From assembly GCF_009865405.1 (NCBI RefSeq), contig NZ_WWJY01001138.1, positions 1 through 44,278 of the forward strand: a stretch of 44,278 nucleotides of DNA, written 5' to 3'. The translations under genes and the position numbers were made by a program. The DNA comes from Streptomyces sp. SID3212. GTDB taxonomy: Bacteria; Actinomycetota; Actinomycetes; Streptomycetales; Streptomycetaceae. Of this stretch, positions 26,311 through 44,132 are shown piece after piece. The notes beneath the pieces are model-generated. The model searched no databases. It was given only the letters and a program-made list of their open reading frames with translations, and had not been told where the DNA came from. Numbering within the stretch: position 1 is the stretch's first letter; the number at the start of each line of letters is the position of its first letter.

Positions 26311-26982
26311 TCACTGCGCGCCGGGGCGTACCAGCCCGCTCTCGTACGCGTACACCGCCGCCTGCACCCGGTCGCGCAGCCCCAGCTTCGTCAGCACATG
26401 ACCCACGTGCGTCTTGACCGTCGTCTCGCTGACGAACAGGTCCGCGGCGATCTCCGCGTTCGACAACCCCCGCGCGACCAGCTTCAACACCTCGACCTCA
26501 CGGTCCGTCAGCGTATGCAGGGTGTCCGGCACCGCGTCCTCGCCCGACGGCAGATGGTCCGCGTACTTGTCCAGGAGCCGCCGCGTGATGCTCGGCGCGA
26601 GCATCGCCTCGCCCGCCGCCACCACCCGGATCGCCTGCACCAGCTCGTTCGCCGGCGCGTCCTTCAGCAGGAAACCGCTCGCCCCCGCCCGCAACGCCTC
26701 CACCACGTACTCGTCGAGGTCGAACGTCGTCAGGACCAGCACCTTCGCCGGACCGTCCCGGCCAGGACCGGTGATCTGCCGGGTCGCCTCCACCCCGTCC
26801 ATCCGGGGCATCCGGATGTCCATCAGCACCACGTCGGGCTGGAGCGCGCGCACCTGGTCGATGGCCTGAAGACCGTCCCCGGCCTCGCCGACGACCGCGA
26901 TGTCGCCCTCCGCCTCCAGGATCATCCGGAAGCCGGTGCGCAACAGCGGCTGGTCATCGACCAGTAGGACGCGGACAGTCAC
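26311..26982 (-). CDS. NarL/FixJ-type two-component response regulator
   Basis: A 223-residue regulator with an intact receiver domain (residues 1-120) and a C-terminal LuxR-type helix-turn-helix. Phosphorylation-site residues are visible: D9 and D10, D55 (VVLMDIRMP), the TT pair in VLTTFD, and the lysine in GFLLKDAP. The HTH reads LTDREVEVLKLVARGLSNAEIA and then SETTVKTHVGHVLTKLGLRDRVQ. GAAGGAGATCCC precedes the GTG start. Its sensor kinase is not adjacent: upstream on the same strand is the RecB-family nuclease (84 bp away) and downstream is a convergent gene. It is thus an orphan within this window, and its target is unknown. Confidence 0.92.
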   Translation of the reverse strand: MTVRVLLVDDQPLLRTGFRMILEAEGDIAVVGEAGDGLQAIDQVRALQPDVVLMDIRMPRMDGVEATRQITGPGRDGPAKVLVLTTFDLDEYVVEALRAGASGFLLKDAPANELVQAIRVVAAGEAMLAPSITRRLLDKYADHLPSGEDAVPDTLHTLTDREVEVLKLVARGLSNAEIAADLFVSETTVKTHVGHVLTKLGLRDRVQAAVYAYESGLVRPGAQ

Positions 26983-27066: not shown

Positions 27067-27945
27067 TCAGACGACCGACGGGGTCCCGCCGCCCGCCTGC
27101 GGAGCCGGCACCGCCGCCGGCACGCCCGCCGGCACCACGGGCAGCGGATACACCGGAGGCGTACCGCCGAATTCCGGACACACCGCCTGGTGGTCGCACC
27201 ACCCGCACAGCTTCGTGGGCCGCGGCCGCCAGTCACCCGTCCGCGTCGCCAGCTCGATCGCCTCCCACAGCGCCAGCAGCTTGCGCTCCACCCGCTCCAG
27301 ATCCGCCTCCACCGGGTCGTACGTCACCACCTCGCCGCTCCCCAGATAGACCAGCTGGAGACGGCGCGGCACCACCTGCTTCCACCGCCACACCACCAGC
27401 GCGTAGAACGTCATCTGGAACAGCGCCCCCTCCGCGTACTCGGGCCGGGGCGCCTTGCCCGTCTTGTAGTCGACGATCCGCACCTCACCCGTCGGCGCCA
27501 CGTCCACGCGGTCGATCACCCCGCGCAGCCGCAGCCCCGACGCCAGCTCCGTCTCCACGAACAGCTCGCGCTCCGCCGGCTCCAGCCGCGTCGGGTCCTC
27601 CAGCGAGAACCACCGCTCCACCAGCTGTTCGGCCTCCGCCAGCCAGCGCGTCAGCCGCTCGCCCTCCGGGTCCCCCGCGAACAACTCGGCCAGCTCCGGC
27701 CGCGACTCCAGCAGCCGGTCCCACTGGCCCGGCACCAGCGACCTCGCCCGCGGAGCCGTACGCTCCGCCGCCGGCGCGTCGAAGAGCCGCTCCAGCACGG
27801 CATGCACCAGCGTCCCGCGGGTCGCCGCCTCACTGGGCTTCTCGGGCAGTTTGTCGATGACCCGGAAGCGGTACAGCAAAGGACACTGCATGAAGTCGCT
27901 CGCACGGGAAGGCGACAGCGAAGTGGGCGGTCGGCTGGTACTCAT
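27067..27945 (-). CDS. RecB/Cas4-type PD-(D/E)XK nuclease with predicted iron-sulfur cluster
   Basis: A 292-residue stand-alone nuclease of the RecB/AddB C-terminal family. The catalytic core is visible as GVIDRVDVA and IVDYKTGKAP (the D-X(n)-DYK signature). Four cysteines are placed as in AddB and Cas4 nucleases, C21 near the N-terminus and C247-x2-C250-x5-C256 near the C-terminus, which predicts a 4Fe-4S cluster that staples the fold. A Pro/Val-rich 35-residue tail follows. No helicase domain is present. The ATG start has no ribosome-binding site but sits 7 bp after a TAGGGT -10 box within a RecA-NDp-type promoter, implying a leaderless, DNA-damage-induced mRNA. It is divergent from the M50 protease gene. 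Confidence 0.9.
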   Translation of the reverse strand: MSTSRPPTSLSPSRASDFMQCPLLYRFRVIDKLPEKPSEAATRGTLVHAVLERLFDAPAAERTAPRARSLVPGQWDRLLESRPELAELFAGDPEGERLTRWLAEAEQLVERWFSLEDPTRLEPAERELFVETELASGLRLRGVIDRVDVAPTGEVRIVDYKTGKAPRPEYAEGALFQMTFYALVVWRWKQVVPRRLQLVYLGSGEVVTYDPVEADLERVERKLLALWEAIELATRTGDWRPRPTKLCGWCDHQAVCPEFGGTPPVYPLPVVPAGVPAAVPAPQAGGGTPSVV

Positions 27946-27952
27946 GACGCAG

Positions 27953-27975
27953 ACCCTACGGCCCGACACTGACAG
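27953..27975 (-). promoter_or_regulatory. RecA-NDp (PafBC-type) promoter of the nuclease gene
   Basis: Read on the reverse strand: CTGTCAGTG (27967-27975), exactly 8 bp, then TAGGGT (27953-27958), then 7 bp to the start codon. The SOS-independent RecA-NDp motif of actinobacteria, bound by PafBC, is TTGTCRGTG-N8-TAGGGT as I recall it. Only the first base differs. Confidence 0.8.
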
Positions 27976-28064
27976 CGAGCGGAATACCATCGACCACAGA
28001 GGGCACGCACTGCATGATCGAGCATGATCGTGTGCGTGACCCGCGCCGCCGACGAAGGGAACCC

Positions 28065-29312
28065 GTGAAAGAGGACGACGAGAGCGGCGAGAGCAGGCGG
28101 CCGCAGCCCCGGAAGGGGGACCAGGCCGCCGGCGGCAGACCGGCACGGCCCGCAGACCCCGGCGGCGGCATTCTCATGGGCCGCCCCTTCGGCGTACCCG
28201 TCTACGTCGCCCCCAGCTGGTTCCTGGTCGCCGCCCTGATCACCTGGATCTTCGGCGGCCAGCTCGGCCGCGTCCTGCCCGAGCTGGGCGCCGTACGCTA
28301 CGCGATCGCCCTCTTCTTCGCGGTCGCCTTCTACGGCTCCGTCCTCGTCCACGAACTGGCCCACACCGTCGCCGCCCTGCGCTTCAAACTCCCCGTACGC
28401 CGCATCCAGCTCCAGTTCTTCGGCGGCGTCTCCGAGATCGAGAAGGAATCCGAGACCCCCGGACGCGAATTCGTCCTCGCCTTCGTGGGCCCCCTCCTCT
28501 CCCTCGTCCTCTCCGGCCTCTTCTACCTCGGCCTCCTCGCCGTCGACCCCGGCACCGTCCCCGGCGTCCTCCTCGCCGGACTGATGATCTCCAACCTGAT
28601 CGTCGCCGCCTTCAACCTGCTCCCCGGCCTCCCGCTCGACGGCGGCCGGATGCTGCGCGCCGTCGTCTGGAAGATCACCGGCAAACCCATGAGCGGCACC
28701 GTCGCCGCCGCCTGGGTCGGCCGCGCCCTCGCCGTCGCCGTCCTCATCGGCCTCCCGCTCCTCACCCAGACCGGCGCCCTCGGCAACACCAACCGCGACA
28801 TCGGAGGCCTGGAGACCGTCACCGACGCCCTCCTCGCCGCCGTCCTCGCCGCGATCATCTGGACCGGCGCAGGCAATAGCCTGCGCATGGCCCGCCTCCG
28901 CGAACACCTCCCCGAACTCCAGGCGCGCGTCCTCACCCGCCGCGCCGTCCCCGTCGAGGCCGCCACCCCCCTCTCCGAAGCCCTCCGCCGGGCCAACGAA
29001 GCGGGAGCCCGCGCCCTCGTCGTCGTGGACGGCCACGGCGACCCCACCGGAGTCGTCCGCGAGACCGCCATCGTCGGCGTCCCCCAGCACCGCCGCCCCT
29101 GGGTCGCCGTCAGCGGCCTCGCCCAGGACCTCAACGACGGCATGAAGGTCCCCGCCGACCTGGCCGGCGAAGCACTCCTGGACCGCCTCAGAGCCAGCCC
29201 CGCCACCGAGTACCTCGTCGTCGAGGAGACGGGCGAGATCTACGGCGTCCTCTCCACCGCCGACGTGGAACGCGCGTTCGTCGCGGCCATGGCCCGCCCC
29301 GAACCGCGCTAG
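28065..29312 (+). CDS. Site-2 protease family protein (M50) with CBS domains
   Basis: A 415-residue integral membrane zinc metalloprotease. The active-site helix HELAH is at residues 96-100 and the third zinc ligand D192 is in NLLPGLPLDGG, as in S2P/FtsM50-type intramembrane proteases. About five or six hydrophobic segments span residues 45-275. A C-terminal pair of CBS motifs (RRAVPVEAATPLSEAL, and EYLVVEETGEIYGVLSTADVERAF) probably senses a nucleotide. The N-terminal 35 residues are charged and disordered. GTG 28065 is chosen for AAGGGA 6 bp upstream; an ATG at 28014 would extend it by 17 basic residues. The substrate is unknown, perhaps an anti-sigma factor or membrane protein. It is divergent from the nuclease gene. 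Confidence 0.9.
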   Translation: MKEDDESGESRRPQPRKGDQAAGGRPARPADPGGGILMGRPFGVPVYVAPSWFLVAALITWIFGGQLGRVLPELGAVRYAIALFFAVAFYGSVLVHELAHTVAALRFKLPVRRIQLQFFGGVSEIEKESETPGREFVLAFVGPLLSLVLSGLFYLGLLAVDPGTVPGVLLAGLMISNLIVAAFNLLPGLPLDGGRMLRAVVWKITGKPMSGTVAAAWVGRALAVAVLIGLPLLTQTGALGNTNRDIGGLETVTDALLAAVLAAIIWTGAGNSLRMARLREHLPELQARVLTRRAVPVEAATPLSEALRRANEAGARALVVVDGHGDPTGVVRETAIVGVPQHRRPWVAVSGLAQDLNDGMKVPADLAGEALLDRLRASPATEYLVVEETGEIYGVLSTADVERAFVAAMARPEPR

Positions 29313-43175: not shown

Positions 43176-44132
43176 ATGGCCATTGCCAAGGCCGAGCGGT
43201 TGATGAATCTGGCGCTGTGTCTGCTGGGCACCCGCCGCCCCCTCAGCAAGCGCGAACTGCGCGGCTCCATCGAGGCGTATCTGGAAGCCGGCACCGACGA
43301 CTCCTTCAACCGGATGTTCGAGCGCGACAAGGACGACCTGCGCGAGCTGGGCCTGGTCATCGAGACGGTCGAGAACCTCGACGGGGACACCGGCTATCTG
43401 GCCCGGCGGGACAGCAACCGGCTGCCGGCGATCACGCTGGACGCCGAGGAGGCCGCGGCGCTGGGCCTGGCCGCCAAGGTGTGGCAGCAGGCGCGGCTGG
43501 CCGGCGCGGCCAGCGGCGCGCTCCAGAAGCTGCGGGCCGCCGGGATGCCGGAGGCCGAGGACTCGTACGAGGCGCACCACAGCGCCCTGGAACCGCGCAT
43601 CCCCGTCCACGAGGCGGCCTTCGAGCCGCTGATGCTGGCCTGCCGTGACCGGCGGCCCGTCGTCTTCGACTACCGCAAGGGCAACGCGGCGACCGCCGGG
43701 ACGCGCCAGGTCGAGCCGTGGACGCTGGAGTGCTGGCGCGGGCACTGGTACCTGGCGGGCTGGGACCGCGACCGGGGCGCCGAGCGGGTCTTCCGACTCT
43801 CGCGGATCACCGGCCGGGTCCGCTCCCGGTCGGGGACGTTCACCGCGCCGGTGCCGGACGTGGTCACCGTACGGGAGACCGTGGAGAGCTGGGCGGGGGA
43901 GACGGCGACCCGGTCGGCGCTGATCCGGCTGCGGGCGGGCGCGGGCTACCCGCTGCGGTCGCGGGCGCTGTCGTCGCGGGAGCTGGGCGACGGCTGGGAC
44001 GAGCTGGAGATCCCGTACGGGCACGGTCTCGACGCCTGGCTGGTGGAGTTCGGCCCCGACGTGGCCGTGGTGGAGCCCGCGGACCTGCGGGCCGACGTGG
44101 TGGAGCGGCTGCGCGCCGTGGCCAAGGGCTAG
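43176..44132 (+). CDS. pafB: WYL-domain transcriptional regulator PafB
   Basis: A 318-residue regulator with an N-terminal winged HTH (residues 1-65, including NRMFERDKDDLRELGLVIE), a helical linker, and a WYL ligand-sensing domain. The WYL motif itself is at residues 191-193 (RGHWYLAGWDRD), and a C-terminal WCX extension follows. With PafC it forms the PafBC activator of the SOS-independent DNA-damage response in actinobacteria. pafC would be expected next, but the window ends 146 bp after the stop. What follows instead is a long inverted repeat beginning at the stop codon. The ATG at 43176 has GGGGAG 10 bp upstream. Confidence 0.92.
   Translation: MAIAKAERLMNLALCLLGTRRPLSKRELRGSIEAYLEAGTDDSFNRMFERDKDDLRELGLVIETVENLDGDTGYLARRDSNRLPAITLDAEEAAALGLAAKVWQQARLAGAASGALQKLRAAGMPEAEDSYEAHHSALEPRIPVHEAAFEPLMLACRDRRPVVFDYRKGNAATAGTRQVEPWTLECWRGHWYLAGWDRDRGAERVFRLSRITGRVRSRSGTFTAPVPDVVTVRETVESWAGETATRSALIRLRAGAGYPLRSRALSSRELGDGWDELEIPYGHGLDAWLVEFGPDVAVVEPADLRADVVERLRAVAKG

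Follow-up and report, generated by a model that had tools for sequence, protein, structure and literature searches.

For the RecA-NDp (PafBC-type) promoter, the consensus tTGTCRgtg-8nt-TannnT has been published (PMC5656591). At its -26 element, PafBC acts through sigma adaptation, and single-stranded DNA (ssDNA) activates PafBC (PMC11804915). In M. tuberculosis, expression measured in a recA deletion with pafBC knocked down yielded the consensus TGTCGG/TGTCAG/TGTCAC-N10-TA-N3-T, and in the recA deletion mitomycin C led to overexpression of rv2119, a gene for a putative recB-like exonuclease (PMC8151990). A published list gives Rv2119 (RecB family exonuclease 3) and Krad_1855 of Kineococcus jointly as a stand-alone RecB-family exonuclease (PMC2587704).

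In Streptomyces, the promoter type was proposed before PafBC was known: the SIGffRid study gave related motifs for 67 S. coelicolor genes, of which 13-20 function in repair (PMC2375139), and SCO6735 bears such a motif and is UV-inducible (PMC5087735). In 2022, Stratton et al. left open the existence of a PafBC response in Streptomyces; according to their text, a first motif search pointed to a lack of conservation of the M. smegmatis PafBC motif in S. venezuelae (PMC9380542). Here we report a promoter site of this type at the start of a stand-alone nuclease gene in Streptomyces sp. SID3212. The window refers to the whole stretch of 44,278 nt that was analysed (contig NZ_WWJY01001138.1).

Promoter site at the nuclease start

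Read directly on the minus strand, window positions 27975..27953 are CTGTCAGTG-TCGGGCCG-TAGGGT, followed by CTGCGTC and an ATG at 27945. The upstream element CTGTCAGTG (27967..27975, -), assigned from its sequence and conservation, is a -26, PafBC-type element that contains TGTCR(GTG). The spacer TCGGGCCG places it exactly 8 bp from the -10 element TAGGGT (27953..27958, -), which fits TANNNT and was assigned from its sequence and a comparison of spacings. The 7-bp gap CTGCGTC (27946..27952, -) separates the -10 element from the start codon; in bearers of the promoter this gap is 5-8 nt. The site lies on the same strand as the nuclease gene (27067..27945, -), at its start.

The preliminary description of this DNA had named the motif, the exact 8-bp spacer, TAGGGT, the 7 bp and the ATG, and two readings returned the same coordinates. 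It had also claimed a fit to the damage-promoter consensus at all but one position; relative to tTGTCRgtg-8nt-TannnT, the sole difference is indeed the weak first T. The observation is confirmed, the promoter match being far beyond chance, and its reading as a RecA-NDp (PafBC-type) promoter of the nuclease gene is supported. A gap of 7 bp leaves no room for a leader, and transcription is therefore predicted to begin at the ATG or close to it; the mRNA is probably leaderless. At the usual distance for a TTGACA element, at most three of six positions matched in 76 of 80 Streptomyces promoters.

Conservation of the promoter site

The initial reading depended on the motif standing ahead of orthologous genes as well, and it withstood this comparison, which took in Streptomyces, the class and further classes of the phylum. 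The nearest set consisted of the best 80 of 554 confirmed orthologue matches among species genomes, and its loci are therefore close relatives: all are Streptomyces, with identity up to 93%. The strict motif was present in 79 of the 80 loci, one per locus, and both strands of the total of 517,508 nt held no further strict match and none on the opposite strand. This is the result of the whole-locus scan; a scan of the upstream 250 nt gave 77/80. All 79 loci have an ATG 6-8 nt past the motif, and each of these motifs is in the reading frame of the nuclease. Locus L066, the exception, differs at one position but has an intact core, and thus the core TGTC-N12-TANNNT is found at the start in 80/80. 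The segment from the start codon to the nuclease domain spans 24-303 nt in these loci, but the motif keeps its place at the start codon throughout. Since per-position conservation is circular at positions fixed by the pattern, it was not used there; the spacer, too, is conserved within Streptomyces and hardly so across the class. Among 29 additional Streptomyces loci, which may overlap the 80, 25 had the strict motif and 27 the core. One of the two misses (L145) is cut by the contig start, and the other (L144) has CGTC instead of TGTC.

The nuclease was found at E 1e-25 or better in 237 of 291 good class genomes. We hand-picked 82 class loci to spread over genera and dropped one at a contig end (L181), which left 81. 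TGTC-N12-TANNNT stood 5-8 nt ahead of an in-frame start in 55 of these 81 orthologues, representing 27 of 31 families, versus 1/4050 in a first-order simulation of the same pattern. With one position relaxed (GTC), the numbers were 64/81 and 2/4050, respectively. The spacers N9, N10, N11, N13, N14 and N15 were found at none of the class orthologues (0/81 each). Anywhere in the scanned region, the pattern occurred in 56 class loci, 55 of which have a start 5-8 nt off the -10 element. A looser scoring scan sometimes placed the best site inside the coding region (for example in L202, L203 and L205); since these loci have proper sites, the stricter pattern was preferred for the class counts.

The recA gene served as a positive control, drawn from 30 of the 82 class genomes. 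TGTC-N12-TANNNT lay within 300 nt in 29 of the 30 recA genes; among the wrong spacers, N15 appeared once in 30 and the others never. At the nuclease, the pattern was missing in 6 of 15 loci of family f15 and in all six loci of family f29 (G056, G217, G289, G100, G156, G138), two of which have the GTC form. All three f29 genomes examined keep the motif at recA. Family f29 therefore has the promoter type at recA and has lost or weakened it at the nuclease. With the motif at recA and the TGTC form gone at the nuclease, this family offers a natural contrast for the role of the nuclease gene.

For other classes of the phylum, we took 41 matches at E 3.9e-42 or better, minus one at a contig edge (G434), widened the gap to 4-9 nt and allowed TTG starts. 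Fourteen of these 40 orthologues had the pattern 4-9 nt ahead of a start, as a raw count; the 14 represent 8 of 16 families. The pattern was missing at the other 26 loci, and other spacers were start-linked in 0/40. By family, f62 had 0/8 and f42 1/11.

Over 65 class genomes, TGTCRGTG-N8-TANNNT occurred 546 times, versus 30 in the control. Sites were more numerous in genomes whose nuclease gene bears the motif by a loose measure (median 6 vs 3 per genome, p 0.025, n=65), a weak link from a statistic that ignores relatedness. Judged by sequence comparison, the nuclease is a deeply conserved bearer of the RecA-NDp promoter type. The pattern suggests that this stand-alone enzyme may be a core but little-studied part of the non-SOS damage response.

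Sites of the same type in the host genome

In the 7.98-Mb host genome, the exact form CTGTCAGTG-N8-TAGGGT has two copies and its reversed control none, and TGTCRGTG-N8-TANNNT has 39 copies versus one for the reversed control. The preliminary description had proposed ranking the window site with a motif matrix. In a leave-one-out matrix over the 39 pattern matches alone, it ranked 24th of 39; because of this rank, it is a typical site and not an exceptional one.

DNA around all 39 sites was collected. A downstream ORF of at least 50 codons was found at 38 sites, the exception being L006, and a Pfam scan covered 31 of the 38 ORFs, the nuclease among them. Repair-type domains lay behind ten sites: RecA, UvrB, MgsA/RarA, an AlkZ-like glycosylase, uracil-DNA glycosylase (ung), two UvrD-type helicases, a RadA-like ATPase, a DEAD helicase and the window nuclease. 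The RadA-like ATPase has zinc ribbon, KaiC and Lon_C domains, and the name RadA is our own; the DEAD helicase is DinG-like by our reading. Several of the 39 sites precede genes without an obvious link to repair. The other targets included ThyX, ribosomal S6, PhoH, SerS, MoaA, MFS and ABC transporters, a sigma factor and Shedu; we take the ribosomal S6 gene to be the first gene of the ssb operon. A start codon (ATG or GTG, any frame) was present 5-9 nt past the -10 element at 19 of 39 sites. This raw count, uncorrected for chance matches, hints that this promoter type may often yield leaderless mRNAs. At the recA site, by our reading, a GTG past the -10 element extends the usual recA start in frame.

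Some individual sites are worth recording in their own right. The gene of an anti-phage nuclease, Shedu (SduA), has the same promoter 7 nt ahead of its ATG (L020, G000:C532:4726-5972, -). Shedu matches were found in 9 of 296 genomes, the host included, and two of the nine have the motif at the start. The second bearer (G014, L275) belongs to another family and has TGTCAGTG-N8-TANNNT 6 nt ahead of the likely start. With two of nine bearing the motif, the cases are too few for Shedu to stand as a general target of the promoter type; damage-inducible defence through such a promoter would be new, if general. A DISARM DrmA-like gene (PADLOC E 2e-40) begins about 50 nt downstream of site L024 (G000:C620:27708-27729, -). 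The second exact genomic copy of CTGTCAGTG-N8-TAGGGT (L019, G000:C518:4340-4362) lies 6 nt ahead of the gene for a SUKH (SMI1/KNR4) protein, which also matches a PADLOC candidate family. Finally, a strong site (L118, G000:C1120:8719-8740; rank 8/39) lies 7 nt ahead of the ATG of a 74-aa ORF that has no match in Pfam or PADLOC; a small damage-induced protein is a possible reading of this ORF.

The nuclease

The gene at 27067..27945 (-) encodes a protein of 292 aa, which the preliminary description had called a stand-alone PD-(D/E)XK nuclease with a C21/C247/C250/C256 pattern. Both parts hold. Pfam PDDEXK_1 (PF12705) matched at E 3.3e-41, and the catalytic residues are in place: H48, D145, D159-Y-K161 and Q177-x3-Y181, whose roles as the active site we assume from the superfamily, are invariant in 29/29 class and 110/110 nearer sequences. 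The four cysteines are invariant in the same 29/29 and 110/110. The protein thus described would probably carry an iron-sulfur cluster, and a working Fe-S exonuclease is its natural reading, as a prediction.

The AlphaFold2 model of the nuclease has a mean pLDDT of 93.3. We compared folds by structural Z scores of this model, plus Foldseek; the structure alignment took in 27 of the 29 class proteins plus the window protein. The best structural match was the nuclease domain of AdnB (Z 20.2, 227 residues, 25% identity), followed by ACE1 (18.1), AddB (15.9), RecE and Dna2 (14.3), Cas4 (14.0) and EXO5 (12.1). AdnB was also the best PDB sequence match (E 8e-4). The modelled fold appears most similar to that of the AdnB nuclease domain, with Cas4-family ACE1 and AddB next, in keeping with a RecB/AdnB/Cas4-type enzyme.

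Several other identities were considered for the protein and rejected. The PADLOC models for Cas4 (E 1e-12) and DruK (E 4e-12) matched the window nuclease. A CRISPR Cas4 was set aside at 46.3 bits for TIGR00372 (cut-off 65) and 13.7 for PF01930 (cut-off 22.7). DUF2800 passes its Pfam cut-off (25.4 vs 21 bits) and was taken as overlap within the superfamily. AdnB itself was rejected as well: the Pfam scan gave no helicase profile for the 292-aa ORF, and no UvrD-type helicase is joined to it. By eye, no CRISPR, Argonaute or helicase partner was seen among the long ORFs of the window.

Regulation of the nuclease gene

With a probability of roughly 0.87, we hold that a RecA-NDp (PafBC-type) promoter drives the probably leaderless mRNA of a stand-alone, probably Fe-S PD-(D/E)XK repair nuclease. 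The process would comprise three steps. First, by the established mechanism, PafBC loaded with ssDNA lets the housekeeping RNA polymerase start at TGTCR(GTG)-TANNNT promoters that lack a proper -35 element. Next, the housekeeping polymerase and PafBC would transcribe the nuclease gene from the site described here, giving an mRNA that is probably leaderless. The nuclease would then most likely trim or degrade DNA ends or single strands, beside RecA, UvrD-type helicases, UvrB and RadA.

Half of the presumed activator is encoded in the window itself. The preliminary description had placed pafB about 15 kb away, and its translation is found at 43176..44132 (+), starting at 43176; pafC is not within the window. 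The name pafB presumably applies, on the strength of its family and of its position after pafA. By eye, the genes between the nuclease and pafB read as ARC, Dop and PafA, a Pup-proteasome locus. A response regulator gene (26311..26982, -; ORF and translation, by eye) lies about 84 bp downstream of the nuclease gene. On the other side, a divergent gene for a membrane metalloprotease-like protein of the M50 type (28014..29312, +, candidate start) was identified as an ORF with HExxH seen by eye; the strand opposite the nuclease carried no strict motif in the 80 Streptomyces loci.

A PafB search at E 1e-10 covered 80 class genomes (G005 and G033 were left out) and found a match in 76. In the other classes, 38 of 40 genomes had a match at the looser E 1e-6, at which weak ones may be other WYL proteins. 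Matches were present in all six f29 genomes and in the five searched of the six motif-less f15 genomes. As PafB is nearly universal in the sample, its presence or absence gives no test of PafBC dependence. For 55 of the 80 class genomes, the nuclease gene is on the same contig as the best PafB match, at a median gap of 15 kb; 54 gaps are within 70 kb and one is 172 kb. Three f21 genomes of 1.3-2.2 Mb (G021, G098, G255) have the nuclease merely 0.9-1.8 kb off the best PafB match. The four class genomes without a match at E 1e-10 were G025, G060, G068 and G103, and the first three have the motif at the nuclease. A search for the WYL family found an adjacent pair in G025, consistent with a diverged PafB/PafC, one match each in G068 and G103, and none in G060, which is a fragmented assembly.

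These data bear on an alternative that we regard as unlikely, namely that the site is a damage promoter read in Streptomyces by ClgR, another WYL activator or an alternative sigma factor, so that deletion of pafBC would spare induction. The motif-bearing genomes G025, G060 and G068, which have no confident PafB match, would fit this alternative, yet G025 has its WYL pair. In M. smegmatis, ClgR reportedly recognises this promoter as well, but P1-driven recA transcription is gone in the pafBC deletion of that species (both as told in PMC5656591). In the SIGffRid study, the Streptomyces motif came up as a putative site for a sigma factor (PMC2375139). Against the alternative, the pattern that we derived from conservation is, spacing included, the expression-derived consensus of M. 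tuberculosis genes that respond to pafBC knock-down (PMC8151990). In the wording of PMC9380542, the existence of a PafBC response in Streptomyces "remains to be shown". The frequent placement of the nuclease gene within 70 kb of pafB speaks for PafBC.

It is highly improbable that LexA/SOS controls the nuclease gene and that the motif is incidental. The SOS box has the core GAAC-N4-GTTC, or CGAAC-N4-GTTCG in full. In the stretch between about 250 nt ahead of the motif start and 60 nt past it, none of the 80 loci held GAAC-N4-GTTC or a one-mismatch CGAAC-N4-GTTCG, a result for the forms searched that implies nothing about activity. The LexA regulon is broad in Streptomyces (PMC9380542) and several mycobacterial regulon genes bear both sites (PMC8223512), but rv2119 was induced without RecA (PMC8151990). 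A chance fit of a GC-rich upstream region, which could draw on the just seven fixed positions of the core and on the one control match in the genome, is ruled out by the conservation in Streptomyces together with the class simulation (1/4050 versus 55/81 observed) and the spacer controls (0/81 for each of six other spacers).

Discussion

In our reading, the nuclease belongs to the known PafBC (RecA-NDp) regulon, as a member with deep conservation, and its dependence on PafBC and induction by damage would be expected in Streptomyces. The promoter is of a known kind, and the nuclease is a new, well-supported member. In most families sampled from the class, and in part of the phylum, a little-studied nuclease has the same promoter type as recA. 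This sharing suggests a conserved step in repair that is independent of RecA and LexA.

The nuclease might also act back on its own activator. Added ExoI sharply lowers PafBC output in vitro (PMC11804915). Because PafBC is activated by ssDNA and ExoI lowers its output, a PafBC-driven nuclease could set the length of the response. As a feedback part of the PafBC switch, it would either remove the ssDNA that activates PafBC and so terminate the response, or lengthen the response by resecting ends. This idea is doubtful; it derives from the activation of PafBC by ssDNA, the position of the gene near pafBC, the shared promoter type and a fold that degrades or produces ssDNA.

For the PafBC-type promoter in Streptomyces at large, counts in six other genomes are informative. 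TGTCRGTG-N8-TANNNT (control in parentheses) occurred 39 (2) times in S. zaomyceticus, 40 (3) in S. flavochromogenes, 51 (0) in S. tendae, 56 (0) in S. violaceus, 15 (0) in S. somaliensis and 52 (1) in S. viridochromogenes. As sequence counts from a set to which S. venezuelae does not belong, they appear to conflict with the statement in PMC9380542 on non-conservation in that species. Since SIGffRid and SCO6735 precede our work, the Streptomyces site set is a rediscovery, now with a control. At 39 versus 1 in the host and 39 versus 2 in S. zaomyceticus, the promoter type is present in Streptomyces and candidate genes are named, so the PafBC question in this genus is directly testable.

The place of the nuclease in this set and the depth of its conservation were not found in print, in a search outside which the supplementary tables of PMC2375139 and PMC8151990 lay. 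The preliminary description had presented the nuclease as a PafBC target still awaiting a test. This was right in part, as the induction of rv2119 by mitomycin without RecA is on record (PMC8151990).

Compared with known systems, the window protein resembles Rv2119 and Krad_1855 in being a stand-alone RecB-family exonuclease, and Rv2119 is damage-induced without RecA according to the M. tuberculosis study cited above (PMC8151990). Cas4-family nucleases (ACE1, Cas4), AddB, Dna2 and EXO5 have the same fold, but the window nuclease, unlike Cas4, falls below the curated Cas4 cut-offs. We take Rv2119 to be a putative orthologue of the window nuclease, an assumption made from the family and a shared neighbourhood. 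The C-terminal nuclease domain of AdnB (AdnAB) shares the fold too; AdnB is joined to a UvrD-type motor, whereas the window protein is a nuclease alone. The promoter, for its part, is like the RecA-NDp promoters of mycobacterial recA (P1), S. rimosus recA and SCO6735 in having TGTCR, an 8-bp gap after TGTCRGTG, TANNNT and a position near the start. Unlike those promoters, it has a stand-alone nuclease as its target. The nuclease start lies 5-8 nt off the -10 element in 55 of the 56 pattern-bearing class loci, whereas the distance at recA varies, and the nuclease promoter can be traced through 27 families of the class and 8 families of other classes.
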